A DNA stretch of 64,000 nucleotides from Chryseobacterium sp. S0630. GTDB lineage: Bacteria; Bacteroidota; Bacteroidia; Flavobacteriales; Weeksellaceae. Shown here piece after piece: positions 4,732-20,897 of this stretch; position 1 is the first letter of the stretch; each line of letters starts with the position of its first letter. A model generated the notes under the pieces. That model made no database searches and was not told the DNA's origin. It saw only the letters and a list, made by a program, of their open reading frames with translations. Position numbers and translations under genes: made by a program. The stretch spans positions 62,001-126,000 of the forward strand of contig NZ_JAMZGF010000001.1 of the NCBI RefSeq assembly GCF_024158915.1. The letters run 5' to 3'.

Positions 4732-4913
4732 ATGCTGATCAAAATTTATGGAAGTGCCATTCATGGAGTGGCTGCACAGACCATTACTATTGAAGTGAAT
4801 GTAGATACCGGAGGAGTAGGGTATCATCTCGTAGGGCTTCCTGATAACGCTATTAAGGAAAGCAGTTATAGAATTTCTGCAGCCCTGAAAAATGTAGGAT
4901 TTAAAATTCCTGG
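4732..4913 (+). pseudogene. yifB: comM/yifB 5' fragment, cut by the transposon
   Basis: The first 60 codons encode the N-terminal domain of the YifB/ComM magnesium-chelatase-like AAA+ protein (AIHGVAAQTITIEVNVDTG, VGLPDNAIKES, ISAALKNVGFKIPG). At 4914 the transposon begins, and the frame runs only seven more residues before a TGA at 4933-4935. The matching C-terminal part is at 20214-20897. In intact family members, KKITINMAP-type sequence and then the Walker A motif follow at this point. Both are absent here and nowhere else in the window. ComM is a branch-migration helicase that helps integrate DNA during natural transformation, so this copy should be non-functional. Confidence 0.9.
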
Positions 4914-4941
4914 TGTCAATTACAAAAGTAAATGATAATAT
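4914..4941 (+). repeat. Left terminal inverted repeat of the Tn7-like element
   Basis: It matches the right end at 22 of the first 28 positions, starting with TGT and containing TGATAA at positions 20-25. The base before it is the last base of the yifB sequence, after codons for FKIP and the first two bases of a Gly codon. Confidence 0.85.
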
Positions 4942-4981
4942 ACAACTAAAAATGATAAAATTATAACATTCATGATAATAT
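4922..4981 (+). repeat. Three phased TnsB-type binding sites, left end
   Basis: Three 20-base units start at 4922, 4942 and 4962. Each has TGATAA at the same place (4933, 4953, 4973). The first two also share the preceding ACAA and AAA blocks, and the third is more diverged. Unit one (ACAAAAGTAAATGATAAT) differs by one base in 18 from a site in the right end. Tn7 ends carry comparable arrays of TnsB sites; the assignment to TnsB is by position and repetition. Confidence 0.75.
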
Positions 4982-5087
4982 CATTGTATTAATACAACAT
5001 GAAATACCGTGTTTTTACTGAATGTTTATTCACTAATTTTTAAGAATTTTAGTGCAATTGTTTATTTTCTCAAAAATAATACATGAA

Positions 5088-5103
5088 TTACGGTTTACCG
5101 TAA
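5088..5103. promoter_or_regulatory. Palindrome upstream of qatA, possible operator
   Basis: TTACGG and CCGTAA flank a 4-base TTTA loop. It lies 21 bases before the -7 box of qatA, over the expected -33 region, so a bound regulator could block or aid RNA polymerase. There is no T run after it, so it is not a good terminator. Confidence 0.3.
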
Positions 5104-5124
5104 AAAGTTATAAAGATTAGATTT

Positions 5125-5132
5125 TAATTTTG
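5125..5132 (+). promoter_or_regulatory. -7 box TAATTTTG for the qat operon
   Basis: It matches TAnnTTTG and lies 17 bases before ATG 5150. No TTG is seen at the proper distance upstream. Confidence 0.4.
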
Positions 5133-5149
5133 ATATAAATCACTAAAGT

Positions 5150-7003
5150 ATGTGGAATGACAACGAATCTCTTTCAGACTATATTGATTATAGTTATTTA
5201 ATGAAAGCAGTTACAACAATAATTGATAAAGATAGTCTATTACCTTGTAGTATCGGAATATATGGAGATTGGGGAAGTGGAAAGTCTAGTTTAATGAAAA
5301 TGATTGAAAAAAAATACGAAAATGAAAAAAATATTTTGGTAATTAAATTTAACGGATGGTTATTTGAGGGATACGAAGATGCAAAATCTGTATTAATGGG
5401 TCGAATTGTAGATGAAATAATAAACAAACGAACATTTTCAGAGAAAGCTATTAAATATGCGGCTAAATTATTAAAAAGAATAGATTGGATTAAAGTTGCA
5501 GGATCATCGTTGAAATATGGAATGAGTTTTTTAACATTAGGACCGGTAGGACTTGCTGGGGTGTCATTGGCTGATGCAATGGGTAAAATGAGTGATGGGG
5601 ATTATGAAAAATATATAAAAGAAAGACAAGGAAAAGAAATGGAAGACTCAGACGAGAGTCTGAGAAATAATATCCAGGAATTTCACAAAAATTTTGAATC
5701 ACTTATTGATGAAACAAAAATAGACAAAATTATAGTATTTATAGATGATCTTGATCGTTGTTCTCCAGATACAATAATAGGTACTCTTGAAGCGATTAAG
5801 CTTTTTTTATTTACTAAGAAAACGGCTTTTGTAATTGGAGCAGATGAAAGATTAATCAAATATGCTGTTAAAAGAAGATTTCCTGAATTAGCTGGAGAAA
5901 ATCTTGAGATAGGTAGAGATTATCTAGAAAAATTAATTCAATATCCTATTCGAATTCCTCCTTTAAATAAAATAGAATTAACGACATATGTTAATTTGTT
6001 ATTTTCTCAATTATATTCTGTAGATACAGTTGACTTTGAATTGAGAAGAAATGAGGTTATAAAGGCAAAATCAACAAATGGATTTGATTTTGCCTTAGAT
6101 CAAAATAATATTTCTGATTTTTTTCATATCGGTAATCAGGAGTTTGAGGATGCAATTGCTCTTTGTTCTCAGATAGTACCGGTTTTGAGTACTGGTTTAA
6201 ATGGAAACCCTAGACAAGCAAAAAGATTTCTTAATACCCTGTTAATAAGAATTAGCATGGCTTCTGCAAAAGGGATAGAATTAAAGAAAAGGGTGCTTGC
6301 AAAATTAATGTTGTTAGAATATTTTAAGCCAGAAACATTTACAGATTTCCATGATATTCAAGCAGGGAACAATGGTGCTATTCCTCTGATAGATAAATTA
6401 GAAACAATTACTTATGGACAGGAAAATGCTGAGCCTAAGGATATATCAGAAGGAGATGAAGCAAGCTCAGAAGAGAAAATATTATTAGAAGATAATTGGA
6501 TTGTTGAGTGGATCCAAAGTGAGCCTAAATTAGGAAAAGAAAATTTACAACCTTACTTCTATTTCTCTAGAGATAAATTAACAATTAGCGCAGTTAATTT
6601 TCAGCGTATGACTCCAAAGGCACAAGAAACAATTCGGAGATTATTAGGTGATTCTGAAATAGCTCGTAAATCTGCAATAAAATCACTAAGTACATTATCT
6701 TCTAGCGAAGCAGCATCTGTTTTTGAAGCTTTGACAGAAAAGGTGAAGCAGGAAGAAAACCTTAATGACAGCAAAGCTTTTAAAGCATTATTTTATTTAT
6801 GTGAGGAAAAATCAGATTTGAAATCACAAGCCATTACTTTTCTTACAAAATATCCAGACCATAAATTACCACTAATCGCTATAACACTTACTGATAGGTT
6901 ATTGAAAACTTCTAATCCCGAAGCTTTAAACCATCTTCTTAATATATGGAGTAAATCTGCTAATGAAAATTTTGCAAAGATTGTTAGAAAAAAAATAAAA
7001 TAA
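5150..7003 (+). CDS. qatA: QatA, KAP-family P-loop ATPase of the Qat anti-phage system
   Basis: The 617-residue protein has a Walker A motif GDWGSGKSS at residues 39-47 and a Walker B segment VFIDDLDRCSPD near residue 200. It also has the KAP signature region with GNPRQAKRFLNTL further on. KAP NTPases usually carry membrane helices inserted between the two Walker motifs; here a short hydrophobic Gly-rich stretch lies near residues 120-145. The C-terminal third is helical and charged. It is the first gene of a four-gene operon with the fixed order ATPase, QatB, QueC-like protein and TatD-like protein, which defines Qat. The family role is defence against phage; the mechanism is not established from sequence. 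ATG 5150 gives good spacing from the -7 box. Confidence 0.9.
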   Translation: MWNDNESLSDYIDYSYLMKAVTTIIDKDSLLPCSIGIYGDWGSGKSSLMKMIEKKYENEKNILVIKFNGWLFEGYEDAKSVLMGRIVDEIINKRTFSEKAIKYAAKLLKRIDWIKVAGSSLKYGMSFLTLGPVGLAGVSLADAMGKMSDGDYEKYIKERQGKEMEDSDESLRNNIQEFHKNFESLIDETKIDKIIVFIDDLDRCSPDTIIGTLEAIKLFLFTKKTAFVIGADERLIKYAVKRRFPELAGENLEIGRDYLEKLIQYPIRIPPLNKIELTTYVNLLFSQLYSVDTVDFELRRNEVIKAKSTNGFDFALDQNNISDFFHIGNQEFEDAIALCSQIVPVLSTGLNGNPRQAKRFLNTLLIRISMASAKGIELKKRVLAKLMLLEYFKPETFTDFHDIQAGNNGAIPLIDKLETITYGQENAEPKDISEGDEASSEEKILLEDNWIVEWIQSEPKLGKENLQPYFYFSRDKLTISAVNFQRMTPKAQETIRRLLGDSEIARKSAIKSLSTLSSSEAASVFEALTEKVKQEENLNDSKAFKALFYLCEEKSDLKSQAITFLTKYPDHKLPLIAITLTDRLLKTSNPEALNHLLNIWSKSANENFAKIVRKKIK

Positions 7004-7013
7004 TTAATAAATT

Positions 7014-7889
7014 ATGGGAACATCAGCTTCAAACGGAGGGCCAACAGGATCTCCACCTCTTTTACCTGATTGGTTTAATCCTAATCCACCGGAAAGAGAA
7101 CAAAATGAACAACCGGAAACCGAAAATAATGATCTTGAAACTGATACTGCAAATAACGATCAGCAAGAAGAACAACCTCAAGATGAAACTCTTGAGCAAA
7201 TAAATGCATTGAATCAATCCAAAGATTGGGGGAAATCTAAAGGAGCTCTAACTAGACTATCAAATGCAAGATCTGGAGCATCAATTAGAAAGGCTGGCAA
7301 AAACTATTTAAACAGTTTAGGCGGAAATAGAGGAGCAACAAGAGCCGCTGTGCAAGGTGTAATAACAGGTAAAAATTATGCTAGCTTCTTAGGAAGTATA
7401 GCTGAAGGAGGGATAGCAAATGCTTTACAGGGGTTAGGAATAGATGAGTTTATCGGAAGAACCTCGGAGGAGGTTTGTATAGCAATAGCTAATGCATTAG
7501 CACCAATTGGCGCAACAAATGATGAAGCTATAGCACGTGAAGCTCTTATCTCTACCTTAGACTCATTGTATGGGAAAATGCAAGAAGAAGGAAGTGACTT
7601 TACAAGTATAAACGAATTAAATCTAGAACAAATAAAAGATACACTTATTGAGTTTGTTAGTAACTATATTTTTAATAAATGGATGTATGAGCTTGGCGGA
7701 GCAATTGAAAGAGGTGATGTTACAGAAAGAGAAGTTATAAATTTAGAAATACAAGTTAAAGATTTTATTCAAGCTGAGACAATTGAGAGGTATCGAGATA
7801 TTCCAATTGAAACATTTAATTTGAATGATCGCGTGAATTATATAATAATAGAAGAAATTTTTCAAACTGCATACTCAACACTTGAATAA
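7014..7889 (+). CDS. qatB: QatB, Qat anti-phage system protein
   Basis: The 291-residue protein opens with MGTSASNGGPTGSPPLLPDW, the Gly/Ser/Pro-rich start typical of QatB. A very acidic, Gln/Glu-rich linker follows at about residues 25-65. Next is a Gly/Ala-rich stretch (GALTRLSNARSGASIRKAGKNY), and then a mainly helical C-terminal half. It has no catalytic motif that I recognise. It begins 10 bases after qatA and its stop overlaps the start of qatC by one base (TAATG), so the three genes should be translated together. The family function is unknown apart from its requirement as a Qat component. Confidence 0.88.
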   Translation: MGTSASNGGPTGSPPLLPDWFNPNPPEREQNEQPETENNDLETDTANNDQQEEQPQDETLEQINALNQSKDWGKSKGALTRLSNARSGASIRKAGKNYLNSLGGNRGATRAAVQGVITGKNYASFLGSIAEGGIANALQGLGIDEFIGRTSEEVCIAIANALAPIGATNDEAIAREALISTLDSLYGKMQEEGSDFTSINELNLEQIKDTLIEFVSNYIFNKWMYELGGAIERGDVTEREVINLEIQVKDFIQAETIERYRDIPIETFNLNDRVNYIIIEEIFQTAYSTLE

Positions 7890-9220
7890 TGAAAACAAAA
7901 AATATAATAGTAAAAATACATAGCTCTGATACGTTTCAATACACTGAAGATCAGCAAGAAGACGTACTGGAAATTCAACTTGATCATACGGATGTGAATA
8001 AAATGGTCAAGGAAAATATATTAAGAGATCTAGGTCATTCAGGTCTAGTACCCAATAATGTAATTTATGACTTATTAAATTTTGCCCTTGCCATATACAC
8101 GATTGATCAGGTTGTATCAAGAAAGAATAATGGTTTTCAGGGATGGTCTAGATATTTCATTGTCAATTTTCCAGTACAAGATTTTGAAATTTGGGATGCT
8201 GTAAGTGAAGATTTTAACAAATATCTAAGCTTTTTAAGTGGAGATAGGTGGGAATTTATATTTAGGCAGAGTGAAGAAATTAGAGATTTTGTATTGCCAG
8301 AAAATAGAAATCCAAAAGGTATCACAAAAGTATCATTACTTTCAGGTGGTCTAGATTCATTTATTTGAGCAATAGATCTTTTATCAAATGGGGAGGTACC
8401 TTTTTTCGTAAGTCATCACAAAACTTCTGAAAGCAAAATTCAAGATAAAGTTTTAGGGGCTTTAAAAGCTCAGTTTGGCAATACAAGTTTTACATCTCAA
8501 AAATTTTGGGTACAGCCAAATCAAAAAAATTCTACAGCAGAAAAAGAGAACTCTTCAAGAGCACGTTCTTTCTTATTCATAACACTTGGGGTTGCCGTTG
8601 CTAATAGTATTGATGATAGTATTCAGATGATTCTTCCAGAAAATGGTCTTATTTCACTAAATATACCTCTTACAAAATCAAGGTTTAGTAGCCACAGTAC
8701 AAGAACTACCCATCCGTTTTTTGTGGATGGATTAAATAGTATATTTGAAAAATTAGGAATAAACAATAAAATTGAAAATCCTTATAGGTTTAAAACTAAG
8801 GGTGAAATGATATTGCAATGTGAAGACATTGACTTTTTAAAAGAACATATTGCCATAACCATGTCATGTTCCCATCCAGAGAATGGAAGATTTTTAGGAA
8901 GAGAACCTCTTAATTGTGGATATTGCGTTCCGTGCTTAATTCGCCAAGCATCCGAGTATCAAGCTGGAGAAATTTTCACATCCTATGCAATTGGAGATGT
9001 GAGAGAATCGGTTCCTACTCAAAAATATAAAAAAGGGTCTGATTATCGCGCATTTAAGATTGGATTAGAAAAATTATCAGATATTAATAATGAACATTCA
9101 CTAGCTTTGCAAATTATAAGATCAGGCCCTATTCCTTACTCCACTTTAAATGAGCTAAATGAATACATTTCAGTTTATAAAAGGGGCATGTCGGAAGTTG
9201 AACAATTTTTAAATAGTTAA
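7889..9220 (+). pseudogene. qatC: QatC, QueC-like protein with an in-frame TGA
   Basis: Read through, the frame gives 443 codons before the stop. One is TGA at 8366-8368, codon 160, directly after SGGLDSFI (residues 152-159). SGGLDS is the PP-loop ATP-binding motif of QueC-type enzymes. The next residues (AIDLLSNGEVPFF) continue the family sequence in the same frame with no indel. The C-terminal part keeps SSRARSFLF, STRTTHPFF and a Cys cluster (CSHPENG, then CGYCVPC) like the zinc site of QueC. Homologues often have Gly here, so GGA to TGA by one base change is the simplest explanation. The product would stop at 159 residues unless read through, or the base may be a sequencing error. An in-frame ATG at 8627 could restart only the C-terminal 197 residues. 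Confidence 0.85.
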
Positions 9221-9228
9221 AAAGCTTA

Positions 9229-9963
9229 ATGTTATTTGATACTCATTTACACTTAGATTTATTTGAAGATCCACAATCACTTATTAAAAATATTGAAAAA
9301 AGACAGATTTATACTATAGCTGTAACGAATCTTCCAAAGGTTTTTTTTCATACAAAAAAATTGTGTGAAGGATATAAATATGTTCGCCCGGCCTTAGGTT
9401 ATCATCCAGAATTAGTTTTTAAATTTAGTGACCAGTTAGAATTATTTCTTAAGTACCTTGATGAAACTAAATATATAGGTGAAATAGGATTAGATAATCA
9501 AAAAAAATCAGTTGATGATTTCACTAAGCAAAAGCAGATTTTTGAAAAAATTATTTTTGCTTGTGCCGAAAAACGTGATAAAATATTAACAATTCATTCA
9601 AGAAAGGCAGAAAAGGAAGTTTTATCAATTTTGGGTAATAGTTTTCCTGGCACTATTATTTTGCACTGGTACTCTGGCTCTTTAAGAGATTTAGAGACAG
9701 CTTTATCTTATGGATTTTATTTTTCAATAAATTCAGCTATGTTGAAGTCTAAAAATGGTTTAAATATTATAAAAAATATACCAGATGACAGATTATTATT
9801 GGAGTCAGATAGCCCTTTTATTGGAGTTGATAAAAGTAGCAAAATTCCTTACAACGCAGAATCTCTTATTCAGGAGTTAAGTGCATTAAAGAAATGTCAT
9901 TCAGAAATATTACAGAGAAAGTTGCATGATAATTTCAGAAATATTTTATCAATTAAGCATTGA
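9229..9963 (+). CDS. qatD: QatD, TatD-like metal-dependent hydrolase of the Qat system
   Basis: The 244-residue protein has the TatD set of metal ligands in order. These are H6 and H8 in DTHLHLD, E in YIGEIGLD near residue 85, H in TIHSRK near 124, H in ILHWYSG near 145, and D in LLESDSPF near 188. TatD enzymes are DNases of the amidohydrolase fold. It starts 8 bases after qatC and closes the qat operon. It should be active in itself, but if the four proteins act together the broken qatC may silence the system. A strong hairpin follows at 10003-10042. Confidence 0.9.
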   Translation: MLFDTHLHLDLFEDPQSLIKNIEKRQIYTIAVTNLPKVFFHTKKLCEGYKYVRPALGYHPELVFKFSDQLELFLKYLDETKYIGEIGLDNQKKSVDDFTKQKQIFEKIIFACAEKRDKILTIHSRKAEKEVLSILGNSFPGTIILHWYSGSLRDLETALSYGFYFSINSAMLKSKNGLNIIKNIPDDRLLLESDSPFIGVDKSSKIPYNAESLIQELSALKKCHSEILQRKLHDNFRNILSIKH

Positions 9964-10002
9964 TTTAGTATTAAATTATGGAATCTGTATTGATACATAG
10001 AT

Positions 10003-10042
10003 AAAATATAAGCCATACAAGAAATTACATGGCTTATATTTT
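10003..10042. terminator. Bidirectional terminator between qatD and gajB
   Basis: A perfect 14-base stem (AAAATATAAGCCAT with its complement) closes a 12-base loop. It carries T runs on both strands and lies between two convergent operons. Confidence 0.8.
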
Positions 10043-10056
10043 TATAAAGAATCAGT

Positions 10057-11856
10057 TTATAAAATATTATATTTAAAATCATATGTTAAAAGATATGGTG
10101 TTGGAGCTTTTCCATGAGGATTACGATAATCTACAGCTCGCTCTCTTTCTGATATGATATGAAGATTTTTTCTTGCTCGTGAGGCTAAAACATATAATAA
10201 CTTCTTTGAGCTTTCAAGTTTGTTTTGGTCACTAAAGTGTGGCACATAATCATCTAATAAAGCAAATCCAATCATGGTGTCATATTCTTCTCCTTTTACA
10301 CCATGGATTGTAGACACTGTAATTCCTTCTTTCTGTTTGAAAACTTTCCTAAAATTATCAATATCTCCAATAAAAGTATGACCCTCTCGAATAAGTTTAT
10401 TTATTCTTTGCTCGGAGCTTTCAAAAAAAGAGATGTAATGTTCTTTCAATAATGAGTAATTATCAAGCTGAATTGCTAATTTATTACATATTTCATCAAA
10501 GAAGAACCTTAGATAAGCCAAGCCATTATTTTCATCTATTTCGATTGAATTACAAATCTTTAACAATAATTTGGGGGTTAAATTTGAAATATCTATCCCC
10601 GCAGCTTCTAAAGTATCTAAAACTTCTTTACTCCATCTCATTCTTCTAACATACAAATGCGGTGAGGGCTCTGTAAGCACAATTCGGGACACTTTAAACC
10701 AAAAATTTTCAATATCTCTTGAAAAAGGTGCCATACCTGGTCCGTCAAAACTTAAGTTTGGTAGTTCAATCATTAAACGTCTAGTAATGCTTGCTATATG
10801 TGCCCATTGTGGGGCAACTATACATATTTCATTTGGAGAGATTTTCTTTTCTTTTATATTGATTAGAATAAGTCTAGAAATTTCTTTAACTAAATCATTA
10901 AGAGAAATATTAAAATTAAAAGTTATAGTACTTGGATAGTCTTTGTGCTCTCCTGAAGCAATTATTGTATTTGGGAAAGTTTTATAGTAATCAAAGTAAT
11001 TAATAACAGATTGAGAAGATCTATAATTATGAGTTAAACCAAGTTCTATTAGCTTAAAACCAAATAGTTCTTCTAGTTCTTTTTGAGGCATTGCATAACC
11101 TCCTAATGACTGATAGATTGACTGATTAGGATCTCCTACAATTAATGTTTTTGAATCGCCATTGTTTGCTTTTAATATTTGAGAAATAATATGATATTGA
11201 ATCTCTTTAGTATCTTGATATTCGTCAATTAATATAAAAGGAAAAAGTTTAGCCAAAATTGAGCATATAATAGGGTTTTGTTTCAGAAGAGAATATGCTA
11301 AAAAGAGTATCTGTTCAAAATCGATTTGATTATTTTGTTGTAAAGTCTTAAAGTACTCGGAATAAATCTTTTTTAAAGATTCGTGTTTATTTCTATTTGA
11401 GCATGTTAAATGATATCCATCCGTTTTGGCTATTATTCCACAGTCCCAATAAGTAATTCTTTCATTTCTGTAGGGCTCACATAATTGTGTTAAAAGGGTT
11501 TCAGAATCATATGAATTAATTACTCTAAAGCCATTTTTTAGCATGTCTAAATGAAGATGGTAAGGATTAATAATCCATTCTAAGCAAAATGAATGGATTG
11601 TTCCAATCCATAATTGAGAAACATCTACGCCTAACATTTCAACTCTTTCTTTAATTTCATCAGCTGCATTGTTAGTATATGTAATTGCAATTACAAAATG
11701 TTTTTTCGTTTTAAGGCGACTTAGTTCATAAGCCATTTTATAAGTTAGTGTTCTTGTTTTTCCACTTCCAGGGCAAGCTATTAGCAAAACACTATTTTTC
11801 TCAAAAATAGCATTTTCTTGGTCTTTGTTTAAACTATTTTCTTCCCAAAAAAACAT
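10057..11856 (-). CDS. gajB: GajB, UvrD-like helicase of the Gabija system
   Basis: The 599-residue protein is a superfamily 1A helicase. It has Walker A ACPGSGKTRT near residues 27-36, motif Ia with ITYTNNAADEIKERV, motif II LIDEYQDT near residue 210, motif III VGDPNQSIY, a motif V region VSTIHGVKGEEYD, and motif VI LASRARKNL close to the C-terminus. It starts one base after the stop of gajA. An OLD nuclease followed directly by a UvrD-like protein is the defining pair of Gabija, in which GajA cuts DNA and GajB is thought to sense termini and help activation. The well-studied Bacillus GajB is about 100 residues shorter, so this is a longer variant. Confidence 0.88.
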   Translation of the reverse strand: MFFWEENSLNKDQENAIFEKNSVLLIACPGSGKTRTLTYKMAYELSRLKTKKHFVIAITYTNNAADEIKERVEMLGVDVSQLWIGTIHSFCLEWIINPYHLHLDMLKNGFRVINSYDSETLLTQLCEPYRNERITYWDCGIIAKTDGYHLTCSNRNKHESLKKIYSEYFKTLQQNNQIDFEQILFLAYSLLKQNPIICSILAKLFPFILIDEYQDTKEIQYHIISQILKANNGDSKTLIVGDPNQSIYQSLGGYAMPQKELEELFGFKLIELGLTHNYRSSQSVINYFDYYKTFPNTIIASGEHKDYPSTITFNFNISLNDLVKEISRLILINIKEKKISPNEICIVAPQWAHIASITRRLMIELPNLSFDGPGMAPFSRDIENFWFKVSRIVLTEPSPHLYVRRMRWSKEVLDTLEAAGIDISNLTPKLLLKICNSIEIDENNGLAYLRFFFDEICNKLAIQLDNYSLLKEHYISFFESSEQRINKLIREGHTFIGDIDNFRKVFKQKEGITVSTIHGVKGEEYDTMIGFALLDDYVPHFSDQNKLESSKKLLYVLASRARKNLHIISERERAVDYRNPHGKAPTPYLLTYDFKYNIL

Positions 11857-11857
11857 A

Positions 11858-14014
11858 TTATTTTAATTTTTTAAAAAAAGCTAATGCTTCATCGTTAGTA
11901 ATATTTTTTAGAGAAGCTATGACTTGGTCTAACGAGCTCTTTCCATCTCTATAATCAATTAAAATTGGTTTTAAAGAGCTAAAATCTAATTTATTATCAT
12001 TTGTGAAATTTTGAGCGATTCTATAGTCAACTATATCAGCGATAAGGTTTGGTGAAAAATCTTCCTTCACAAAAATAATAGCATCTAAAATATATTCCGG
12101 AAGGTAGGTTCTAAAAGAAATATATTTGCCTAGTTTTATTGCAAACCATCCTTTTCCCTCTTGCTTAGCTATAGTTAAAACTCGTCTTCCATAAATAGAA
12201 ACATTTTTGGACTCAAGTTCTTTTTTTGCTAAATCTACTGTCGTTTGGTCTTTATAAGTACTTTTAAGGGTCTGAACAACTTCCCATGAATTTCCAGCCT
12301 TAATAAAATCAACTTCAAAAGTATATGAAGCATAAAATGTTTTAAGCCAAGGGTTGCCTTTTTGGAAAATGTCTAATTTTTCTTTTCTAGCTTTTCCTTT
12401 TTTCTTAGATGCTTCAATTAGGTTTTTATATTTAATTGTTTTTATGTCATCATCTTCATTAACCTTCGTGTCACAAATTGCCTCATCTAAATCAGTCAAA
12501 ATAGCACAATTCCTTTTGATCCTATCCTTATGGAATAACTGTGCAACATTTTCAAAACCTGTGCTTCTAATATTTATTAAGCTTATACCAAGTTCATCGA
12601 GACTAATTCCTAATAATTTTTTAATCATTATTGGGATTAATATTTCCTCGGCATCCCCCTCAATTAATATTACCCCCTTTGCAAATAATAAATTTGTTCT
12701 GACAGCATCTAAATATCTCTGAATCTGATTGATGTTTTCAGGTTTCAAATTATTAGCAGGCTGGTATACTTCAGTATAATTTAGCTTCTTTGCAAGTATA
12801 TTGATGTTTTCCACGTTGCTTACTTCGGATATTTGAGTAGAATGGGTCGAATAAATAATTTGTGTATCACCATAATTCAGTTTATCAAATAATGTTTTTT
12901 GAATATGATTGTGTATGTGAGCCTCAGGTTCTTCAATCATTAAAAAATTAGCATGAGTATCCTGAGATTTTCTATATTGAAATTCAAGTAATTTTAAAGT
13001 TAAAAAAATTAAGTTGGCCCCTCCTAAACTTAATTCATGTATTCCTCCTTCATAATCTTCATAAGGTTCTCCAATATATAGTTTTAAAGACTGTAATAAT
13101 TTGTCCGGATCATTAGGAACACTTGATCTTATAGATAAGGATGAAGGTGAATATGTTTGGCCTACAGCTCCCTGAATAGTTGTTTTTATATCCTTTCTAA
13201 TATTTTGTACATCATCAAGTTCTTCTATTTTATCATTTAATTTTTTAACCAGATCGTTTATAGGTTTATAACTGGCTTCAGTTATTTCGCCACTTTTATT
13301 TTTTAAAAGATTTAGTAGAGGATTGGTTCTATTATTATGGAAATCACTTACAACATCTCGCAAGGCTTGAATAAATGTGAAAGAAATTTCTTTAGACACC
13401 GATAGCTGATGTGGAATTTTAGCACCAAATTTTAAAGCATCTAAATTTGTAGAAGGAAAACTTACATTTTCGAAATCACCTACTAATTCCTTGTAAACAT
13501 TAGGATCATTAAAGTCAGCAGTACTTTTTCCTGTAAATAATGTTTCGTAATTTTCTTCTATAGTTAGTCCTTCAAGTAGATTTTCTAATCCTTTTCTATC
13601 ACCTAACTTTAGCTCTGAGAGCTTTTGTCTAATATCAGCTTTTGGTCGAAAAAAAAGATTGTATGTTGCTTTTTTTACTGATTTATCTTTAATAATACCG
13701 GCTCCATGTATAAATAATGCCTGAATAGCTTCTTCATCATTAATTTCATCAAACTCTATACTTATGATAATCCAATGCCCTTTCCATTTGCCATTATCAA
13801 GAGTTCTATTATCAAGAGTCCTATTGAAATCGCTTTCTGATAATTTATACGCATACTGTAGAGACGAATCTTCTAATAATAGCCGAATAGCCCGAAAGAC
13901 ATTGGTTTTTCCTGAGCCGTTTTCTCCAATGATTGTATTAATGCCTTTATTGAAATAAAAACATGCATTAGAGAAATTTTTATAGTTTATAAGGGATACT
14001 TTTGATATAAACAT
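11858..14014 (-). CDS. gajA: GajA, OLD-family nuclease of the Gabija system
   Basis: The 718-residue protein has an N-terminal ABC-type ATPase with Walker A GENGSGKTN at residues 30-38. The signature-like LSLGGANL lies near residue 340, Walker B MIEEPEAHIHNH near 358 and the switch His in YSTHSTQIS near 390. A TOPRIM nuclease domain follows, with ILIEGDAEEI near 450 and the acidic ILTDLDEA near 507. GajA is a sequence-specific DNA nicking enzyme held off by nucleotides and released when phage depletes them. All main catalytic motifs look intact, so the gene should encode an active enzyme. It is divergent from tnsE, with starts only 58 bases apart, which suggests shared upstream control. Confidence 0.9.
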   Translation of the reverse strand: MFISKVSLINYKNFSNACFYFNKGINTIIGENGSGKTNVFRAIRLLLEDSSLQYAYKLSESDFNRTLDNRTLDNGKWKGHWIIISIEFDEINDEEAIQALFIHGAGIIKDKSVKKATYNLFFRPKADIRQKLSELKLGDRKGLENLLEGLTIEENYETLFTGKSTADFNDPNVYKELVGDFENVSFPSTNLDALKFGAKIPHQLSVSKEISFTFIQALRDVVSDFHNNRTNPLLNLLKNKSGEITEASYKPINDLVKKLNDKIEELDDVQNIRKDIKTTIQGAVGQTYSPSSLSIRSSVPNDPDKLLQSLKLYIGEPYEDYEGGIHELSLGGANLIFLTLKLLEFQYRKSQDTHANFLMIEEPEAHIHNHIQKTLFDKLNYGDTQIIYSTHSTQISEVSNVENINILAKKLNYTEVYQPANNLKPENINQIQRYLDAVRTNLLFAKGVILIEGDAEEILIPIMIKKLLGISLDELGISLINIRSTGFENVAQLFHKDRIKRNCAILTDLDEAICDTKVNEDDDIKTIKYKNLIEASKKKGKARKEKLDIFQKGNPWLKTFYASYTFEVDFIKAGNSWEVVQTLKSTYKDQTTVDLAKKELESKNVSIYGRRVLTIAKQEGKGWFAIKLGKYISFRTYLPEYILDAIIFVKEDFSPNLIADIVDYRIAQNFTNDNKLDFSSLKPILIDYRDGKSSLDQVIASLKNITNDEALAFFKKLK

Positions 14015-14072
14015 TTTATAATTAAATTATTATCTTCAACTTTTGTACATATCACTAAAATATGAATTTAAT

Positions 14073-15764
14073 ATGATTTTAAAAAAAATAAAGAGTTATT
14101 CTAAGGAAGGAGATTTTTGGATGCTTTTTAATTTTGGAAAGATAACTTTTAGAGATGAAATTTTATATAGAGAAGTTAAATTTATAAGAGTGAATTCATC
14201 TGATTTTTATAATTCTCAAGATTGGAATTTGAAGGAAATTATCATAGAAGAAATAGTAGAACAAATTGTCAATAAATTTAAGTTGGCAGATATTTATGAT
14301 TGCAATGGAAAATTTGTATGTGATTTAAATAAGAATCATAAAAAAATAGAAAAAAGAGAAGTTATATTGTCAAACTATAGAAATTTTAGAGTAGGTTCTT
14401 GTGAAGAATTTTTCGAGAACACCCCTTTTGCTAACCAAATTGATAATAAAGCATATTATTCTTTTAGTCATAATACGTTTATTTCTTTAAGTTTAATTAG
14501 TCAATTTTTTTATTATTATTCCACTAAAGTCATTAATATAATCACAGATTTTGAAAAATTTAACAAAGGGTTTATAAGTAGAGATTTATTAGAAAGTAAA
14601 TTCGTCTTTGATAATACTATTGGGATAGGGCAAAATGAAGCAAAGCTTATTGGTAAATATTGGTTTACCGATAGAGATGAAAATAAAACAGGAATGTATT
14701 TATTAAGAAAAGCTGTAAATAGTTTTTATAGTTTATTGTGGAAACAAAAAGAAGACAAAAGGGGACAACTTTCAGGAGAGATTTTCTATAATATACCATT
14801 TAACTTTCCAATTAAAGCAACTGTTATAGGGCAAATGATTGCTAAAAACAAATTTTTCGCCTACAGATTGTTAAATGTTGAACCCAATAAAAAAGATTAC
14901 CCCTTTTATATTAATGATCAAGATATTGAGCCAGTAGCACTTGTAGATACTCGTTCAGCCGAAAATAATCAAGGAAATCCTAATACATATACTGACAATA
15001 TAACAATAGATGGAGAAGAAATATTAGATTTAGTATCCGATTCACCTGCAGTGGTTACAAATCCTAATTTGGAAGTTGAAGAAGTAACAGTTGATAATGA
15101 TGTATTCTTAGTTTCTCCTCATTATAAAAAAACAAAGAAAATACTAAATGATCAAAATTATATAAAGGGAAATACTGTTGTAAATAATGTAGAAGAGCAG
15201 GGAATATTAAGTAATCAGACAACAACGGGAAGCAATGTTCAAGCAATCAATTATATTGCTATTCAAGAAAATTCTTCTGACCTTTTTTTGAAAATTCTTG
15301 AATATCTAAAGCAAAAAGGAGTAAATATCAGCTTTGCGACAATTAATGATTCTACAGATGAAAAGTTTTCATATTACGAACCTGAAAACTCGAAAATACC
15401 TTATATTATAATTGCTATTGCTAGATTAAATAATAGGGAGTTTTTCATTATTGAAACAGGCTTATATAGGAATATTGGTATAGTAGAAAACCTATCAAAT
15501 ATACCAACACAGCAAAAAAATGATAAAAATTTGACTAAACTTATTAGAACCCTTGATCATAAAAATGTAAAATTTAGCTGGAGTTCAATATTTTATGATG
15601 GTACATTGAGCAAGGATTATCAAAGTAAGAAAATAAGATTTGACTCTATAAGAGAAAAAATGCTTTTAGAAGTCATACAACCTGTTAATCATAGATATGG
15701 GCTTACAGAGAGAGATACCATTCAAAAAATTGGAGACACTATATATAAGAAAATTAATAAATAA
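14073..15764 (+). CDS. tnsE: TnsE-like transposition target protein
   Basis: I start at ATG 14073 (563 residues); a TTG at 14043 would add ten. By eye the protein follows Tn7 TnsE along its length. The N-terminus has GDFWMLFNFGKI, and a hydrophobic helix FISLSLISQFFYYY corresponds to the TnsE segment ARSLFLINSYF. A long acidic low-complexity linker lies at about residues 300-400. The C-terminal domain has LEYLKQKGVNISF, REFFIIETGL, VKFSWSSIF and VNHRYGLTERD, the last like VNHPKGLGELQ of Tn7 TnsE. TnsE binds DNA 3' recessed ends and the sliding clamp to send Tn7 into replicating DNA such as conjugating plasmids. The gene converges on tniQ with an 11-base overlap, unlike Tn7, where tnsE follows tnsD on the same strand. 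Confidence 0.72.
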   Translation: MILKKIKSYSKEGDFWMLFNFGKITFRDEILYREVKFIRVNSSDFYNSQDWNLKEIIIEEIVEQIVNKFKLADIYDCNGKFVCDLNKNHKKIEKREVILSNYRNFRVGSCEEFFENTPFANQIDNKAYYSFSHNTFISLSLISQFFYYYSTKVINIITDFEKFNKGFISRDLLESKFVFDNTIGIGQNEAKLIGKYWFTDRDENKTGMYLLRKAVNSFYSLLWKQKEDKRGQLSGEIFYNIPFNFPIKATVIGQMIAKNKFFAYRLLNVEPNKKDYPFYINDQDIEPVALVDTRSAENNQGNPNTYTDNITIDGEEILDLVSDSPAVVTNPNLEVEEVTVDNDVFLVSPHYKKTKKILNDQNYIKGNTVVNNVEEQGILSNQTTTGSNVQAINYIAIQENSSDLFLKILEYLKQKGVNISFATINDSTDEKFSYYEPENSKIPYIIIAIARLNNREFFIIETGLYRNIGIVENLSNIPTQQKNDKNLTKLIRTLDHKNVKFSWSSIFYDGTLSKDYQSKKIRFDSIREKMLLEVIQPVNHRYGLTERDTIQKIGDTIYKKINK

Positions 15765-16743
15765 GATTTTTTTCAAACCAATATGGTATTCCAGACTTTT
15801 CATGGTATATATAAGATTTAGCTATTTTATAGTGGTTAAGTAAATCCAAAAATTTTTGATCTTTAAGTATTTTAAAGATAAGAGGAAAAGTATCAATTCT
15901 TGTTTGAACATCCCAAAAACTAATATTTTGATTGATTATTTCTAAATCGAAGCGATATGTGTTTTTAATAAATTGTTTAAATATTCCTTTATGTGAGTTA
16001 CTTCTAAGCCTATTAGCAATTATTAAAAATACTTTTATAAATAAAAATGAATACGAAGTGAATTCATTGTACCCCATATCAATAGTTGAATTAATATACT
16101 TCTGATATTGTAAATCAGATTTTTTACTTACAACTAAATGTTTTAAGTCAATCAAATTATAATCAAAAAAACAATTGTAGCAAATATTAAATGACTTAAA
16201 CCCATTTGTTGGATATAACCTATTTCCACCTTTATTAATTTTAAAAAAATGTAGAGGGTGATTGCATCCAGGGCATCTATCAATCAAGTATAGTTTACAG
16301 TCCATACATAAAATAGAAGTGCTTAGCCTCCATTGTTTTTGATAGTAATTGTGTTCATTTAAACATTTTACACAAGCTTGGAGGCCATATTTAAACTTAG
16401 ACCTATTAACTATTCCGATTGGAAGAACATTTATTGTTGTTGTCTTAGTACTAATGTTTTCGAAAGCATAACCTTCAAGAGATTTTAAAAAAAGACTATT
16501 AATCTGTGAGATAGACAAGGGAGTATGCTTGTTAATTACTTCTATCAAATTATTTGGCGCTAGAATATCAATGTCTCTTGTAAAGTAACTACTAGATTTC
16601 GGAAAAAAATTCTTAAGAAAAGTTTGCGTTTTAACTTGATGGTTAATGGATAGCCTATTTATCCAAGAGCTAAAAAGTTCATTCTTGTTTGGGGAAATAT
16701 ATAGAGGGAAAATATCTTTATCAAAAGACTTAATATATACCAT
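15754..16743 (-). CDS. tniQ: TniQ/TnsD-family target-selection protein (short)
   Basis: The 329-residue protein begins with the TniQ domain (ELFSSWINRLSINHQ, then FLKNFFP). A zinc-binding region follows at about residues 118-160: CVKC, then CMDC, then CPGC with a following His. It is much shorter than Tn7 TnsD (about 500 residues), lacking most of the C-terminal DNA-recognition part. TniQ/TnsD proteins choose the target and recruit TnsC. As the only TniQ-family protein seen here, it is the natural candidate for directing insertion into yifB. Its start overlaps the end of tnsC by 14 bases, so it is translated with the tns operon. Confidence 0.82.
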   Translation of the reverse strand: MVYIKSFDKDIFPLYISPNKNELFSSWINRLSINHQVKTQTFLKNFFPKSSSYFTRDIDILAPNNLIEVINKHTPLSISQINSLFLKSLEGYAFENISTKTTTINVLPIGIVNRSKFKYGLQACVKCLNEHNYYQKQWRLSTSILCMDCKLYLIDRCPGCNHPLHFFKINKGGNRLYPTNGFKSFNICYNCFFDYNLIDLKHLVVSKKSDLQYQKYINSTIDMGYNEFTSYSFLFIKVFLIIANRLRSNSHKGIFKQFIKNTYRFDLEIINQNISFWDVQTRIDTFPLIFKILKDQKFLDLLNHYKIAKSYIYHEKSGIPYWFEKNLIY

Positions 16744-17626
16744 TGTTAAAAAAAGCTTTTTTTCTATTTTGTGGAGCTATATAATCTATCTCATTGAGTA
16801 TATCTAAAGTTATTTTTTCACTCGTTGTATTAATAGCTAATATTGTTGATAATTCTAATATTTTAGAAATTTCTCCTATTAGCCCGTCACTCATTAGAAG
16901 GATCTTGTTAGACAATTTATCTTCTATAAGATTTGATCTTTTTTTGATAGGGAGTACTTTTTCAAAACTTGCTAAAAGTCTTTTATAGTCGGTGTTATTT
17001 TCCCATCTAACAAGAATGTTAGGTTCAAACCGATTGGATAGTTGTGAGTCGGTTTGTATTGCATTAAAGGCCAGTTTTGTTCCGGAACAAACTAGTGGTA
17101 TATTTAATTCATTAGATAAATATTTTATAACATTTAAAAATAATCTTTGTTTAGAAATCGTACCGGCAAGAACGTGATGTATTTCATCAATAATTAACAC
17201 TTTAACTTCAAGTTCTTTTAAAAGATGAATTACTCGATTTTGTCTATTCTCGATTTTTTCAGATGTTTTCGTTGGTGCTAATACTGAGTTTAAAATTGCA
17301 TTATAGAATCTTTTTTCATCTGGTTCAGGAGGGGACTGAATCATTAATACAGGACATTTTAATTTTGCAGTTTTTTCATCAACATATGATTGATGTGATC
17401 TACAAAATTTTTTTAGTAAAGCTGTTTTTCCATTATTTGACTCTCCAACAAGTAAAAGATTTGGCATTCTATGCCCTTTTGGATATGTTGTTAAATCTAC
17501 CATTTTATCTAAAATGATTTTAGCTTTAGTGTAACCTATCCATTTAAACTCTTTGGTATATAGTATTCTTTCTTCACTAGAAGAGTTAACAATGAAGGTT
17601 TTTAAATTATCTGCTATATGTTCCAT
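16730..17626 (-). CDS. tnsC: TnsC/TniB-family AAA+ transposition regulator
   Basis: The 298-residue AAA+ ATPase has Walker A GESNNGKT at residues 61-68, Walker B VLIIDEIHHV near 145 and a sensor region with IPLVCSGTKLAF. It is close in size to TniB and to the TnsC of CRISPR-linked elements, and shorter than Tn7 TnsC (about 555 residues). TnsC forms ATP-dependent filaments that link target selection to the TnsAB transposase and impose target immunity. Its start overlaps the tnsB end by 13 bases and its end overlaps tniQ, so all are in one polycistron. Confidence 0.88.
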   Translation of the reverse strand: MEHIADNLKTFIVNSSSEERILYTKEFKWIGYTKAKIILDKMVDLTTYPKGHRMPNLLLVGESNNGKTALLKKFCRSHQSYVDEKTAKLKCPVLMIQSPPEPDEKRFYNAILNSVLAPTKTSEKIENRQNRVIHLLKELEVKVLIIDEIHHVLAGTISKQRLFLNVIKYLSNELNIPLVCSGTKLAFNAIQTDSQLSNRFEPNILVRWENNTDYKRLLASFEKVLPIKKRSNLIEDKLSNKILLMSDGLIGEISKILELSTILAINTTSEKITLDILNEIDYIAPQNRKKAFFNNGIY

Positions 17627-19449
17627 ATTTCAATATCGTCAAATGGTTTTATATCATTATCATTTTTCTGCTCATTTTGAATCAGAGGATTTTCGTCTAA
17701 CATTGTATGTACTTTATTTTTACTATAAGATTTACTATTTTGAATTTTTGTATTTCTCATAGCTCTTTTTTCTATCTCATCTAATTCTCGGTAAGCTTCA
17801 AAAATTGATTTTTCATCTACCTTAATTTTTTTACTTTTTATTATTTTTAGAATTTCCCGATATTCCCAGATCGATATTTTAGGTAGGGACATGTTTCTGT
17901 AAGGAATATCGTAATAATCATTTTTTTGTGGATCGTAAAAGTAAATAGAACTAATATCCCTAGGATCTCTTCTAAATATATGTTGTGTTTTTTCACCTTT
18001 GATATTGGCATCATGTATGAAACTTTTTAATACATCACTATAATAATGGATATGATCAATAACAATTCCATATTCTTGAACGGTTCTCTTTATTATCGGC
18101 ATAAAATCTAATCTTACTTTCCTTTCACTGTTAATTCTAGGAGGAATTCCTCGTCCTATAATTTCAGGACCTCCTAAAATTCCCTGTTTAAATTTCTGTT
18201 CCGGAGTTATATCTAGACTAGAATGAATTCTTTTATGGTAGATTTTAGTAATATATATGACTAACCATTTTTCAAATTCATATAGTGTGAAAGATGCATT
18301 TTTTTTCGAATCATAATTCTTTCTATCTTGAATATTAGAGAAAGTTGTTCCAGGTAAATTGTGAATTTCCTTCGAAAATGTTCCTAAAATACGTTCTATA
18401 TGTCCTCCAAAATGCGGAGTAGCAACTGGTCTGAATTCAATATTAATTCCATAATTAGCACAGGACTTTCGTAAAGTATTTCCTCTAAATTCTTTTGCAT
18501 TATCCAGATGTACAGTATCCATTATCCCCCAACAGGGCCACTCCCCAGATATTTCTAATGAATTTAACCATGATTCTTTTGGTAATATAGAATTAGCTAT
18601 ACACATTCCTGTGCCTAATGCCCCCGGATGCTCAAACGAAAGGTATAAACCAATAACCATTCTACTATAAACATCGATTGCTAGGGTAAGCCAAGGTCTT
18701 TTCAGCGGTTTTCTATATTGCTCATCTACAAGTACAATATCAACTAATGTGTGATCAATTTGTACTATGGATAAGGGATATTGTGCCCCTTCAAAACTAC
18801 CTCTATGAGGTTCATATTTATATTTTGCTTCCTTTATTCCTAATCTTTTTCTTACTTTTTCTTCATCAGAAATATTTTTAATTCTATTACGAATTGTGTT
18901 AGGGTGTGGTGGCTCAATAGAGTATTTATCACACTCTAAATTTACTTCTCTTATAGTTTTATTTATTGACTTTTTTGATTGATTAAGGTAAACTGAATGT
19001 ATTTTATTTGCTATAATATTTTCTAGCTCTTCTGGTAATCTACTCTTTCCTTGCCCACCATTTTTCTTCTTTCCAATAAGTGAGGAAACTGTGCCATAGG
19101 TTTCAAATATCTTAACCCATCTGTAAATTGTGGGAACACTGACATTACTCTTTTGGGATATTGAAGAAATCAGCTGATAGTCACCTCTTTTTTTTAATAT
19201 TGGACTAATCAGATTATACCTGTACTGGGCCTTTTCCCATTCCTTATCTGATAAGGAAACAAGGTCCTTTTCGTTGTCTTCGTTGAAGTTTTTAATACTT
19301 TCTAGCTCAGCTATTTTAACGGTATGGATTATATTTGTTTTAATTTCTTCAATTGATAGTGTATCTATATCAATAATCCTTACTATTATACATAAAGCAT
19401 CATTGTATAATACCTTTTCACCTTTACTAATAAAAATTCTATCCCTCAT
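17614..19449 (-). CDS. tnsB: TnsB, DDE transposase
   Basis: The 611-residue protein has an N-terminal helix-turn-helix region (SNVSVPTIYRWVKIF). The integrase-type core follows with catalytic D near residue 231 (VQIDHTLVD), D near 315 (VHLDNAKEF) and E near 350 (GGHIERILGTF), a DD35E spacing. A Mu-transposase-like C-terminal beta region comes next. TnsB binds the transposon ends, cuts the 3' strands and joins them to target DNA. The repeated TGATAA sites at both ends are its probable binding sites. Its start overlaps the stop of tnsA by 4 bases. All catalytic residues are present. Confidence 0.93.
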   Translation of the reverse strand: MRDRIFISKGEKVLYNDALCIIVRIIDIDTLSIEEIKTNIIHTVKIAELESIKNFNEDNEKDLVSLSDKEWEKAQYRYNLISPILKKRGDYQLISSISQKSNVSVPTIYRWVKIFETYGTVSSLIGKKKNGGQGKSRLPEELENIIANKIHSVYLNQSKKSINKTIREVNLECDKYSIEPPHPNTIRNRIKNISDEEKVRKRLGIKEAKYKYEPHRGSFEGAQYPLSIVQIDHTLVDIVLVDEQYRKPLKRPWLTLAIDVYSRMVIGLYLSFEHPGALGTGMCIANSILPKESWLNSLEISGEWPCWGIMDTVHLDNAKEFRGNTLRKSCANYGINIEFRPVATPHFGGHIERILGTFSKEIHNLPGTTFSNIQDRKNYDSKKNASFTLYEFEKWLVIYITKIYHKRIHSSLDITPEQKFKQGILGGPEIIGRGIPPRINSERKVRLDFMPIIKRTVQEYGIVIDHIHYYSDVLKSFIHDANIKGEKTQHIFRRDPRDISSIYFYDPQKNDYYDIPYRNMSLPKISIWEYREILKIIKSKKIKVDEKSIFEAYRELDEIEKRAMRNTKIQNSKSYSKNKVHTMLDENPLIQNEQKNDNDIKPFDDIEIWNI

Positions 19450-20102
19450 TCTAAAAATATTGTAGTATCCATTGTTAATTTAGTTGTTTCATCAAAATTT
19501 ATATATCTTTTAGATAACATATGAAGCAGCACATATAATAATTCAGCTTTTTTTTCTTCACAAGTAATTGCCAGATCAAGAGTCTCTTGTATTGAAATCG
19601 GTTGATGATTTTCTATAATCTTCTCTAAAATAGTCATAAAACCATCATCAAACCCAACTTTTGGATTTCTGTATCCTAATAGAAACTTTGCATTTTGTAA
19701 TCTGTAACCATTACGTATTTTCTCTTCAGTAATAATTTTAAATTTTAGCCCATTATCAGAGCAAAATGCTTGAGCTGCTTCAAACTTAGGTCTATATTTT
19801 TCTTTATTTTCGGCAAGATCAATTAAGTATTTTACTTCAATAAGCTCGCTTTTTACATCTTTTGAATGATATTTTACGAAAAAATCAGGTACATAATATT
19901 GATTATTTCCGTAGTATATTTTTAATGGCTGTTCATAGTATTTATAAACTTTAGTATCATATTCTAATAAATAAATATAATCCCGCTCTAATGAGGATTC
20001 AAAGTTTACTATTTCATTTGCTTTAGCACTATATATATTTCCTGTCAAGCTTAAATTGGATAGTCCAATCTCTCTAACTTTTTTGTGACTCATTATCAAC
20101 AT
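19446..20102 (-). CDS. tnsA: TnsA, endonuclease subunit of the transposase
   Basis: The 218-residue protein has a restriction-enzyme-like active site: E in NFESSLERD near residue 35, D73 in YVPDFF and the E89-K91 pair in LIEVKY. A helical C-terminal domain follows that in Tn7 contacts TnsC and TnsB. TnsA cuts the 5' strands, so a TnsA-bearing element moves by full excision rather than by cointegrates. An alternative ATG lies at 20093. It is the first gene of the operon and begins 111 bases inside the right end. No clear TAnnTTTG promoter is seen before it. Confidence 0.9.
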   Translation of the reverse strand: MLIMSHKKVREIGLSNLSLTGNIYSAKANEIVNFESSLERDYIYLLEYDTKVYKYYEQPLKIYYGNNQYYVPDFFVKYHSKDVKSELIEVKYLIDLAENKEKYRPKFEAAQAFCSDNGLKFKIITEEKIRNGYRLQNAKFLLGYRNPKVGFDDGFMTILEKIIENHQPISIQETLDLAITCEEKKAELLYVLLHMLSKRYINFDETTKLTMDTTIFLE

Positions 20103-20142
20103 CTTTTGTGTAATTAAAGTTAAAAATTATTTTAAGAAGTCT

Positions 20143-20205
20143 CGATTATCATTTTCTTTTGTAAAAACTATGGTAAATGGATTGATTATTATCAAATACT
20201 GTTGC
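20143..20205 (-). repeat. Two TnsB-type binding sites, right end
   Basis: Read inward on the minus strand, units at 20205-20186 and 20162-20143 carry TGATAA at the same place as the left-end units (plus-strand TTATCA at 20189-20194 and 20146-20151). The inner one, ACAAAAGAAAATGATAAT, matches left unit one at 17 of 18 bases. The two are 43 bases apart, against 20 on the left. Confidence 0.75.
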
Positions 20206-20213
20206 AATTTACA
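20186..20213 (-). repeat. Right terminal inverted repeat of the Tn7-like element
   Basis: The plus strand ends in ACA at 20211-20213, directly followed by GTAGGAGGAGG, the yifB codons for VGGG. The inward sequence matches the left end at 22 of 28 positions. Confidence 0.85.
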
Positions 20214-20897
20214 GTAGGAGGAGGAAGTTATCCGCAACCAGGAGAAATCTCTCTTGCTCATAACGGGGTTTTGTTTCTGGATGAGATGCCCGAATTTAAG
20301 AGAACAGTGCTGGAAGTCATGAGACAGCCTTTGGAAGATCGGGAGGTAACGATTTCAAGAGCCCGATTTACGGCCAACTATCCGGCAAGTTTTATGTTGG
20401 TAGCTTCTATGAACCCCAGTCCAAGCGGGTTCTTTCCCGATGATCCTAATAATACCTCATCTGTTTATGAAATGCAGCGGTATATGAATAAACTTTCAGG
20501 GCCGCTTTTAGATAGAATAGATATCCATATCGAAGTTCAGAAAGTAGAGTTTGAGCAACTTTCCGAGAAAAGAAAAGGAGAGAAGAGCAAAGACATCAGA
20601 GAGCGGGTTTTGAAAGCAAGGGATATTCAGAATAAAAGATATCAAAAGCTCAATATCAGCAGCAATGCCCAAATAGGACCTAAGGAAATTGAAGCCTATT
20701 GTGAACTGGATGAAACCTCTTTCAGTCTCATCAAATTAGCGATGGAAAAACTTAATCTTTCAGCAAGAGCTTATGACAGAATCCTTAAAGTAGCCCGAAC
20801 AATAGCAGACCTTGAAGAATCCGAAAATATTCTGTCCCATCATATTTCCGAAGCCATACAATACAGAAGTCTGGATCGTGAATTCTGGAACGCTTAA
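20214..20897 (+). pseudogene. yifB: comM/yifB 3' fragment
   Basis: It encodes the last 227 residues of YifB/ComM from VGGGSYPQPGEISLAHNG onward. It includes the Walker B segment GVLFLDEMPEF, the AMNPSPSG-like VASMNPSPSGFF, LSGPLLDRIDIH and the C-terminal Mg_chelatase domain with LSARAYDRILKVARTIADLE. It ends normally at TAA 20895-20897. Walker A and everything between residue 61 and about residue 285 of the intact protein are missing from both fragments. A TTG at 20202 inside the transposon opens the frame but is not a likely start. No promoter is seen, so this is a dead remnant. Confidence 0.9.

Follow-up and report, generated by a model that had tools for sequence, protein, structure and literature searches.

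We identified positions 4914 to 20213 of a 64,000-nucleotide stretch of the Chryseobacterium sp. S0630 genome (contig NZ_JAMZGF010000001.1, positions 62,001 to 126,000; hereafter the window), based on their genes and ends, as a Tn7-like element inside yifB (comM). Across related elements in the same gene, the right junction is fixed, the left junction is exact and variable in position, the target DNA between the two is lost, and this arrangement has arisen repeatedly. Tn7-like machinery is used for precise insertion and normally yields an insertion with a 5-bp stagger that preserves the target. We infer that the transposase deletes target DNA on one side, either by uncoupled joining of the left end at insertion or by an adjacent deletion soon after. 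The one-sided deletion is the part worth following: a family that often keeps the programmed junction and loses 0.1 to 0.7 kb next to the opposite one would demonstrate that coordinated joining of the ends can be relaxed in one direction. A literature search that left most subscription journals outside its reach returned no title dealing with the deletion of target DNA on one side by Tn7-like elements and none on Tn7-like elements in yifB of Chryseobacterium.

The window element and its missing target DNA

Both termini of the element are TGT, with the left end at 4914 and the right end, on the reverse strand, at 20213. The agreement between terminal repeats claimed in the initial annotation was reproduced on recomputation, with 22 of 28 positions agreeing; on neither strand of the window does any other ungapped, non-self stretch match the left end better. 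With ≤3 mismatches allowed, the window holds a single copy of the first 26 bases of the left end, and 100 shuffles gave none. Both boundaries, previously read to the base from this single sequence, are confirmed because in related genomes these ends adjoin different yifB positions, and we saw no relative in which the ends continue past 4914 or 20213.

The proposed operon of overlapping genes also held up. Inward from the right end, tnsA, tnsB, tnsC/tniB, and tniQ overlap by 4, 13, and 14 bp, and their Pfam matches and motifs were located. TnsA, TnsB (DDE), TnsC (AAA+), and TniQ are found together, within inverted TGT ends that carry repeated sites; one right-end ATTATCA-type copy, at 20092, overlaps the start of tnsA. 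The TnsB D-D-E, TnsA E-D-K, and TnsC Walker A and B motifs, which we take to have catalytic roles, are intact in the window copy. Close relatives, 89 to 95% identical in shared blocks, occupy other species, each with its own junctions, and based on these insertions and the intact motifs it is plausible that the window element is still mobile. A comparison of its TnsB with plasmid records gave 3639 with a match, all at <60% identity.

The left yifB piece stops at nucleotide 182 and the right piece resumes at nucleotide 853 (±3 nucleotides, in the numbering of a reference yifB gene taken from locus L061), leaving ∼670 bp (codons 61 to 284) absent between them. The initial annotation was right that the TGT ends abut yifB but missed this gap and the absence of a 5-bp target site duplication (TSD; the flanks read CCTGG and GTAGG), as well as the fixed-right, variable-left pattern, the TnsE-like gene, and the broken qatC. 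A 5-bp TSD is the mark of an insertion event; Tn7-like membership rests on genes and ends. A profile search of the genome matched yifB only once, at the right piece; the assembly thus does not contain the missing part at another place. The target site lies at codons 285 to 288, and the Walker B codons (FLDE, 305 to 308) follow ∼60 bp downstream.

Junctions across related elements

Searching other Bacteroidota for tnsB and the ends and looking for empty yifB sites in relatives had been proposed in the initial annotation. With the window TnsB as the query, 21 of 296 family genomes had a match, all in the genus and including the window's own; a species contig collection gave 6 loci; and 5 of 17 genomes picked for an interrupted-looking yifB had a match. 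The 395 order genomes yielded 7 matches, one of them new (G333), and the 395 class genomes yielded 3, namely, the window's own and two distant ones. G654 and G849 were excluded as distant (TnsB, 42% and 37%). The compared set thus comprised 29 elements, including those of the metagenome-assembled genome GWF2_33_16 (G296), Tenacibaculum discolor (G297), and G333, and all 29 are in yifB. Each of the 27 genomes searched whole has a single TnsB place (in pieces in G294 and G304), and neither a second nor an inverted copy was present. Empty sites are common, since 136 of 173 genus genomes have a yifB match above the family cut-off, although such a match is not proof of an intact gene (a contig end truncates that of G315, and that of G194 has a stop). 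The window-type TnsB family is present in 26 of the 37 genus genomes under the cut-off.

The right end lies at nucleotides 853 to 862 (codons 285 to 288) in 28 of the 29 elements. A perfect 5-bp TSD was found in 11 (G296, G298, G300, G311, G294, and six of the B group); G304, with four of five TSD bases at the common site, was counted neither as deleted nor as a perfect TSD. In 14 elements, including that of the window, the left TGT end is exact and is joined 104 to 675 bp upstream, with the intervening yifB lost. These left shifts are 104, 115, 123, 147, 174, 231, 255, 269, 348, 354, 384, 477, 515, and, in the window, 675 bp. Both ends are displaced in G215, where the right end is near codon 439. 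All 15 displaced left ends are exact at TGT and lie at 15 different positions, with microhomology of 0 to 1 nucleotide, judged from native bases of related genes that are 59 to 93% identical to the flank and approximate for G297 and G333. Among elements whose right end is at the site, deletions numbered 14 on the left side and 0 on the right (two-sided binomial P = 1e-4). Junction positions are in reference numbering with no correction for indels, and a formal shift of 3 appears in two elements whose TSD is perfect. There is no left junction for G263 and G318, the latter being represented by its right end only; the N-terminal part of yifB is absent from the G263 genome, and the left end was not found in the stretches examined. 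The flanks of G294 are on two contigs. We noticed post hoc that 11 of the 15 displaced left junctions are in codon phase 2 mod 3 (P = 0.002), which puts the TGATAA double stop of the left end in the yifB frame.

The left end is displaced in 15 of 20 elements from clades A and C, one of which is the window's own clade, and in 0 of 7 from clades B and D, and the clades with no deletion seen make the difference testable. Outside clade B, 15 elements are deleted and 5 have TSDs, compared to 0 of 6 deleted within it (Fisher P = 0.002, relatedness ignored). On a TnsB tree (28 rows, without G304), the deletion label needs 5 changes, 4 of them forced by well-supported branches, and it is clustered (3 of 500 shuffles as low). 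From the left end to tnsB, the G255 and G218 elements are collinear for 14.1 kb at 97.0% identity; their shifts are 104 and 231 bp, and the right yifB pieces of their hosts are 79.5% identical. The same element in different hosts with different left junctions points to separate insertions, each with its own deletion, and so to deletions that arise repeatedly. This pair also indicates that elements of the yifB-targeting family move horizontally. Another pair, G277 and G257, has tns blocks 99.0% identical, hosts 76% identical, and differing shifts, and it weighs less because the left cargo differs. The left cargo also differs between G253 (deleted) and G300 (TSD), whose tns blocks are 96.9% identical.

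Serine resolvases were detected in 16 of 28 scanned elements, and none were found in clades B and D or in the window trio (the window element and two relatives); the scan missed about the left 5 kb of G072, the left contig of G294, and G318, and it covered ∼20 kb of G263. TnsA motif residues are lost in one subclade (G253, G277, G257, G298, and G300; L009-L011, L071, and L072) and separately in G333 (L114). The G300 TnsA row is incomplete at the first motif, and tnsA and tniQ of this element also look frameshifted. Elements with lost TnsA motifs carry serine resolvases. In Tn7-like elements, resolvases and TnsA loss go with replicative movement, according to the accessible part of PMC8649781, and their presence here suggests natural steps from cut-and-paste towards replicative movement. 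The two traits do not decide the outcome, since the window trio is deleted without either of them and G298 and G300 have both yet show TSDs. We therefore rejected TnsA state as the cause of deletion, which occurs with intact and with lost motifs. Resolvases were also rejected, being present in four TSD elements and the near-TSD G304 and absent from four deleted ones, as was presence of the TnsE-like gene, as B-group elements have a homologous protein and keep TSDs.

Possible origins of the one-sided deletion

The reading we favor, at somewhat short of an even chance, is that the deletion is made at insertion, with the right end positioned at the site and the left end joined upstream in cis. 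TniQ and TnsC would position right-end joining ∼60 bp upstream of the Walker B codons, and the left end would skip the opposite strand 5 bp away and join yifB 100 to 700 bp upstream, on the flank opposite the target complex. The intervening strands would be lost, and the deletion would be fixed during insertion. A broader claim, that the ends are routinely joined independently, the right by programmed yifB recognition and the left via looping or a TnsC filament 100 to 700 bp upstream, is in our view less likely than not; if it is true, the element takes the place of part of its target, and a Tn7-type DDE transposon would thereby have an insertion-deletion mode.

Several observations weigh against deletion at insertion. 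Joining at the site does not explain G215, with both ends displaced, and the deletion mode is not obligatory, given the perfect TSDs of four elements in clades A and C. Left-end joining downstream would give long duplications, none of which were seen among the 29 elements. The absence of shifts of 1 to 103 bp from the 26 elements with both ends seen at the site speaks for deletion at insertion, but as weak evidence (P = 0.009 for an exponential and 0.18 for a uniform distribution). Finally, the scatter of left ends could equally stem from a second event after normal insertion.

Such a second event, which we regard as a substantial possibility, would be an adjacent deletion, in which a normal insertion with a 5-bp TSD is followed by intramolecular, replicative attack of the ends on the left flank and loss of the DNA between. 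Adjacent deletion gives one unmoved junction, one moved and exact junction, and no TSD, and it is described as a cause of missing TSDs in the accessible part of PMC11708052. The alternation of TSD and deleted states among close relatives (G253 and G300) fits it, the displaced right end of G215 is compatible with it, and the resolvases, together with TnsA motif loss in two lineages, suggest replicative movement in the deleting clades. The window trio, deleted despite intact TnsA motifs and no resolvase, argues the other way. Target immunity is known for Tn7 and should disfavor sites so near. Intramolecular adjacent deletion is also expected to give right-side deletions and inversions; with only left-side deletions at the site and no second TnsB copy across 27 genomes, the direction favors joining at the time of insertion.

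One-sidedness and variable length would also be accounted for if the left chromosome arm broke after right-end joining, was resected by 100 to 700 bp, and was joined to the free left end; insertion at breaks without TSDs is proposed for insertion sequences (IS) in the accessible part of PMC11708052. This course is improbable, as end repair should leave the transposon terminus shortened or with extra bases, in contrast to 15 of 15 exact ends with next to no microhomology. Microhomology end joining was itself rejected on those 0 to 1 nucleotides. Still less probable is recombination between two yifB insertions in the same orientation, one at the site and one upstream, that removed the DNA between. 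Mosaics do exist, as the differing left cargo beside near-identical tns blocks (G277/G257 and G253/G300) shows, and resolvases could do it; however, no right end lies upstream of the site among the 29 elements, and G255 and G218 are collinear despite their different left junctions. Ordinary decay of a disrupted yifB without the transposase has parallels in G177, where yifB decayed and no TnsB of the family was detected, and in G263, which is without the N-terminal part, but in 15 of 15 cases the deletion reaches precisely to the transposon terminus, which contradicts such decay and leaves it scarcely credible.

The TnsE-like protein and defense cargo

A 563-amino-acid protein is encoded convergently with tniQ (Table 1). 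We placed its start at an ATG common to relatives; the listed open reading frame begins at TTG 14043. It had no relevant match in Pfam, NCBIfam, PADLOC, or PDB sequences. An AlphaFold model of modest quality (mean predicted local distance difference test score, 60) was aligned with VIA-align, and three TnsE C-terminal chains ranked on top with Z scores of 9.3, 8.8, and 8.4, followed by 5.6 in the next row; best Z scores of 7 to 8 are common for models without a clear match. The Tn7 TnsE domain structures compared were 9d5l, 5d17, and 5d16. Foldseek with the same model returned nothing at an E value of 0.001. Based on these best matches, which include the fold of the TnsE C-terminal domain, the predicted protein is TnsE-like, and by analogy with Tn7 it may provide a second route, such as to plasmids. 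Residues 8 to 90 weakly resemble SSB/PriB-type (OB/SSB) chains (Z, 4 to 5.6). Homology extends along most of the B-group counterpart (hhalign probability, 98.8%). In G311, a second tnsA-like match (L124, 12227-12862) lies beside the tnsE-like gene, on top of the tnsA adjoining tnsB.

The antiphage cargo of the window element consists of qatA to qatD and gajA-gajB, as detected by PADLOC. Gabija is represented by gajA (OLD nuclease) together with gajB (UvrD helicase). The four qat genes keep their order, but qatC is broken by a nonsense codon; it is whole in the two closest relatives, with 443-amino-acid frames (L029, 8780-10111; L030, 8758-10089).

Table 1. Features of the Tn7-like element and its flanks, in window coordinates
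Feature	Position	Strand	Evidence
yifB 5' piece, left flank (codons 1 to part of 61)	4732..4913	+	TIGR00368 positions 5-60; junction comparison
Left end: TGT terminus and repeated ATGATAAT-type sites (presumed TnsB sites)	4914..4995	+	Same terminus at other yifB positions in relatives
qatA	5150..7003	+	PADLOC QatA, E=5.7e-141
qatB	7014..7889	+	PADLOC QatB, E=4.5e-39
qatC, in-frame stop after codon 159	7889..9220	+	PADLOC QatC matches both pieces; translation
qatD (TatD-type DNase)	9229..9963	+	PADLOC QatD, E=1.1e-75
gajB (UvrD-type helicase of Gabija)	10057..11856	-	PADLOC GajB, E=3.3e-253
gajA (OLD-type nuclease of Gabija)	11858..14014	-	PADLOC GajA, E=4.4e-304
tnsE-like gene, 563 aa, convergent with tniQ	14073..15764	+	AlphaFold model versus TnsE C-terminal chains; kept beside tniQ in relatives
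tniQ, 329 aa	15754..16743	-	Pfam TniQ, E=1.9e-13
tnsC/tniB (AAA+ ATPase)	16730..17626	-	Pfam TniB, E=1.7e-68
tnsB (DDE transposase)	17614..19449	-	Pfam Mu-transpos_C (Mu-type transposase C-terminal); motifs
tnsA (endonuclease), motifs intact	19446..20102	-	Pfam Tn7_TnsA-like_N, E=3.3e-18; motifs
Right end: TGT terminus and repeats	20103..20213	-	ATTATCA-type copies at 20092, 20145, 20188; 22/28 with left end
yifB 3' piece, right flank at common target site (codon 285 to stop)	20214..20897	+	TIGR00368 to position 499; junction comparison

In G280, G185, and G171 (L040, L043, and L044), tniQ is in two overlapping frames at a nine-A run; its length is 968 nucleotides in these three split species versus 969 in G276 and G072, pointing to programmed frameshifting or shared damage.

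Other insertions in yifB

The gene yifB is a hotspot for unrelated elements. Other insertions interrupt it near codon 281 in G187 (L108), G287, G249, G210, G108, G266, and G308; judged by eye, the L108 element has an apparent large serine recombinase. An extra yifB fragment (codons 1 to 69) lies ∼1 kb upstream of the interrupted gene in G210 (C8, 659482-659688). The distant Tn7-like element of G654 (C12 and C10; L117, L120, and L121) borders yifB at about codons 80 to 90, a different site, and yifB is whole in G849.

Comparison with known systems

Tn7, whose genes, ends, and glmS target we used for comparison, shares with the window element TnsABC, a TniQ/TnsD-type protein, a TnsE-like protein, TGT/ACA ends, and a right end next to the target site. 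It differs in targeting glmS and in having a long TnsD and a 5-bp TSD, whereas the window copy is in yifB, with no long TnsD and no TSD.

The Tn6022 family, in the accessible part of PMC10293859, has the same TnsA, TnsB, TnsC, short TniQ, and opposite-strand TnsE and the same insertion in comM/yifB near Walker B, a region recognized for Tn6022 by the selector TnsF. The window element shares this target, but no TnsF was seen beside tniQ, where the largest unassigned open reading frame in the element is 122 amino acids and no TnsF profile was searched. The same source reports Tn6022 insertions with TSDs, unlike the 670-bp target deletion of the window copy. Because of these reported TSDs and the lack of a TnsF-sized unassigned gene, we did not file the window element in the Tn6022 family. 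The elements compared here reach the comM/yifB site with no TnsF selector in evidence, and they bring a TnsE-like protein into view in Bacteroidota.

Several relatives share resolvases and TnsA motif loss with the resolvase-bearing, TnsA-less Tn7-like elements described in PMC8649781, as far as its accessible part goes; the window element, unlike those, keeps its TnsA motifs and has no resolvase. The IS adjacent deletions covered in the accessible part of PMC11708052 likewise have no TSD and start exactly at the element end. Unlike them, the deletions in yifB leave the other junction at a fixed, programmed site, are on the left only in 14 elements, and span 104 to 675 bp.

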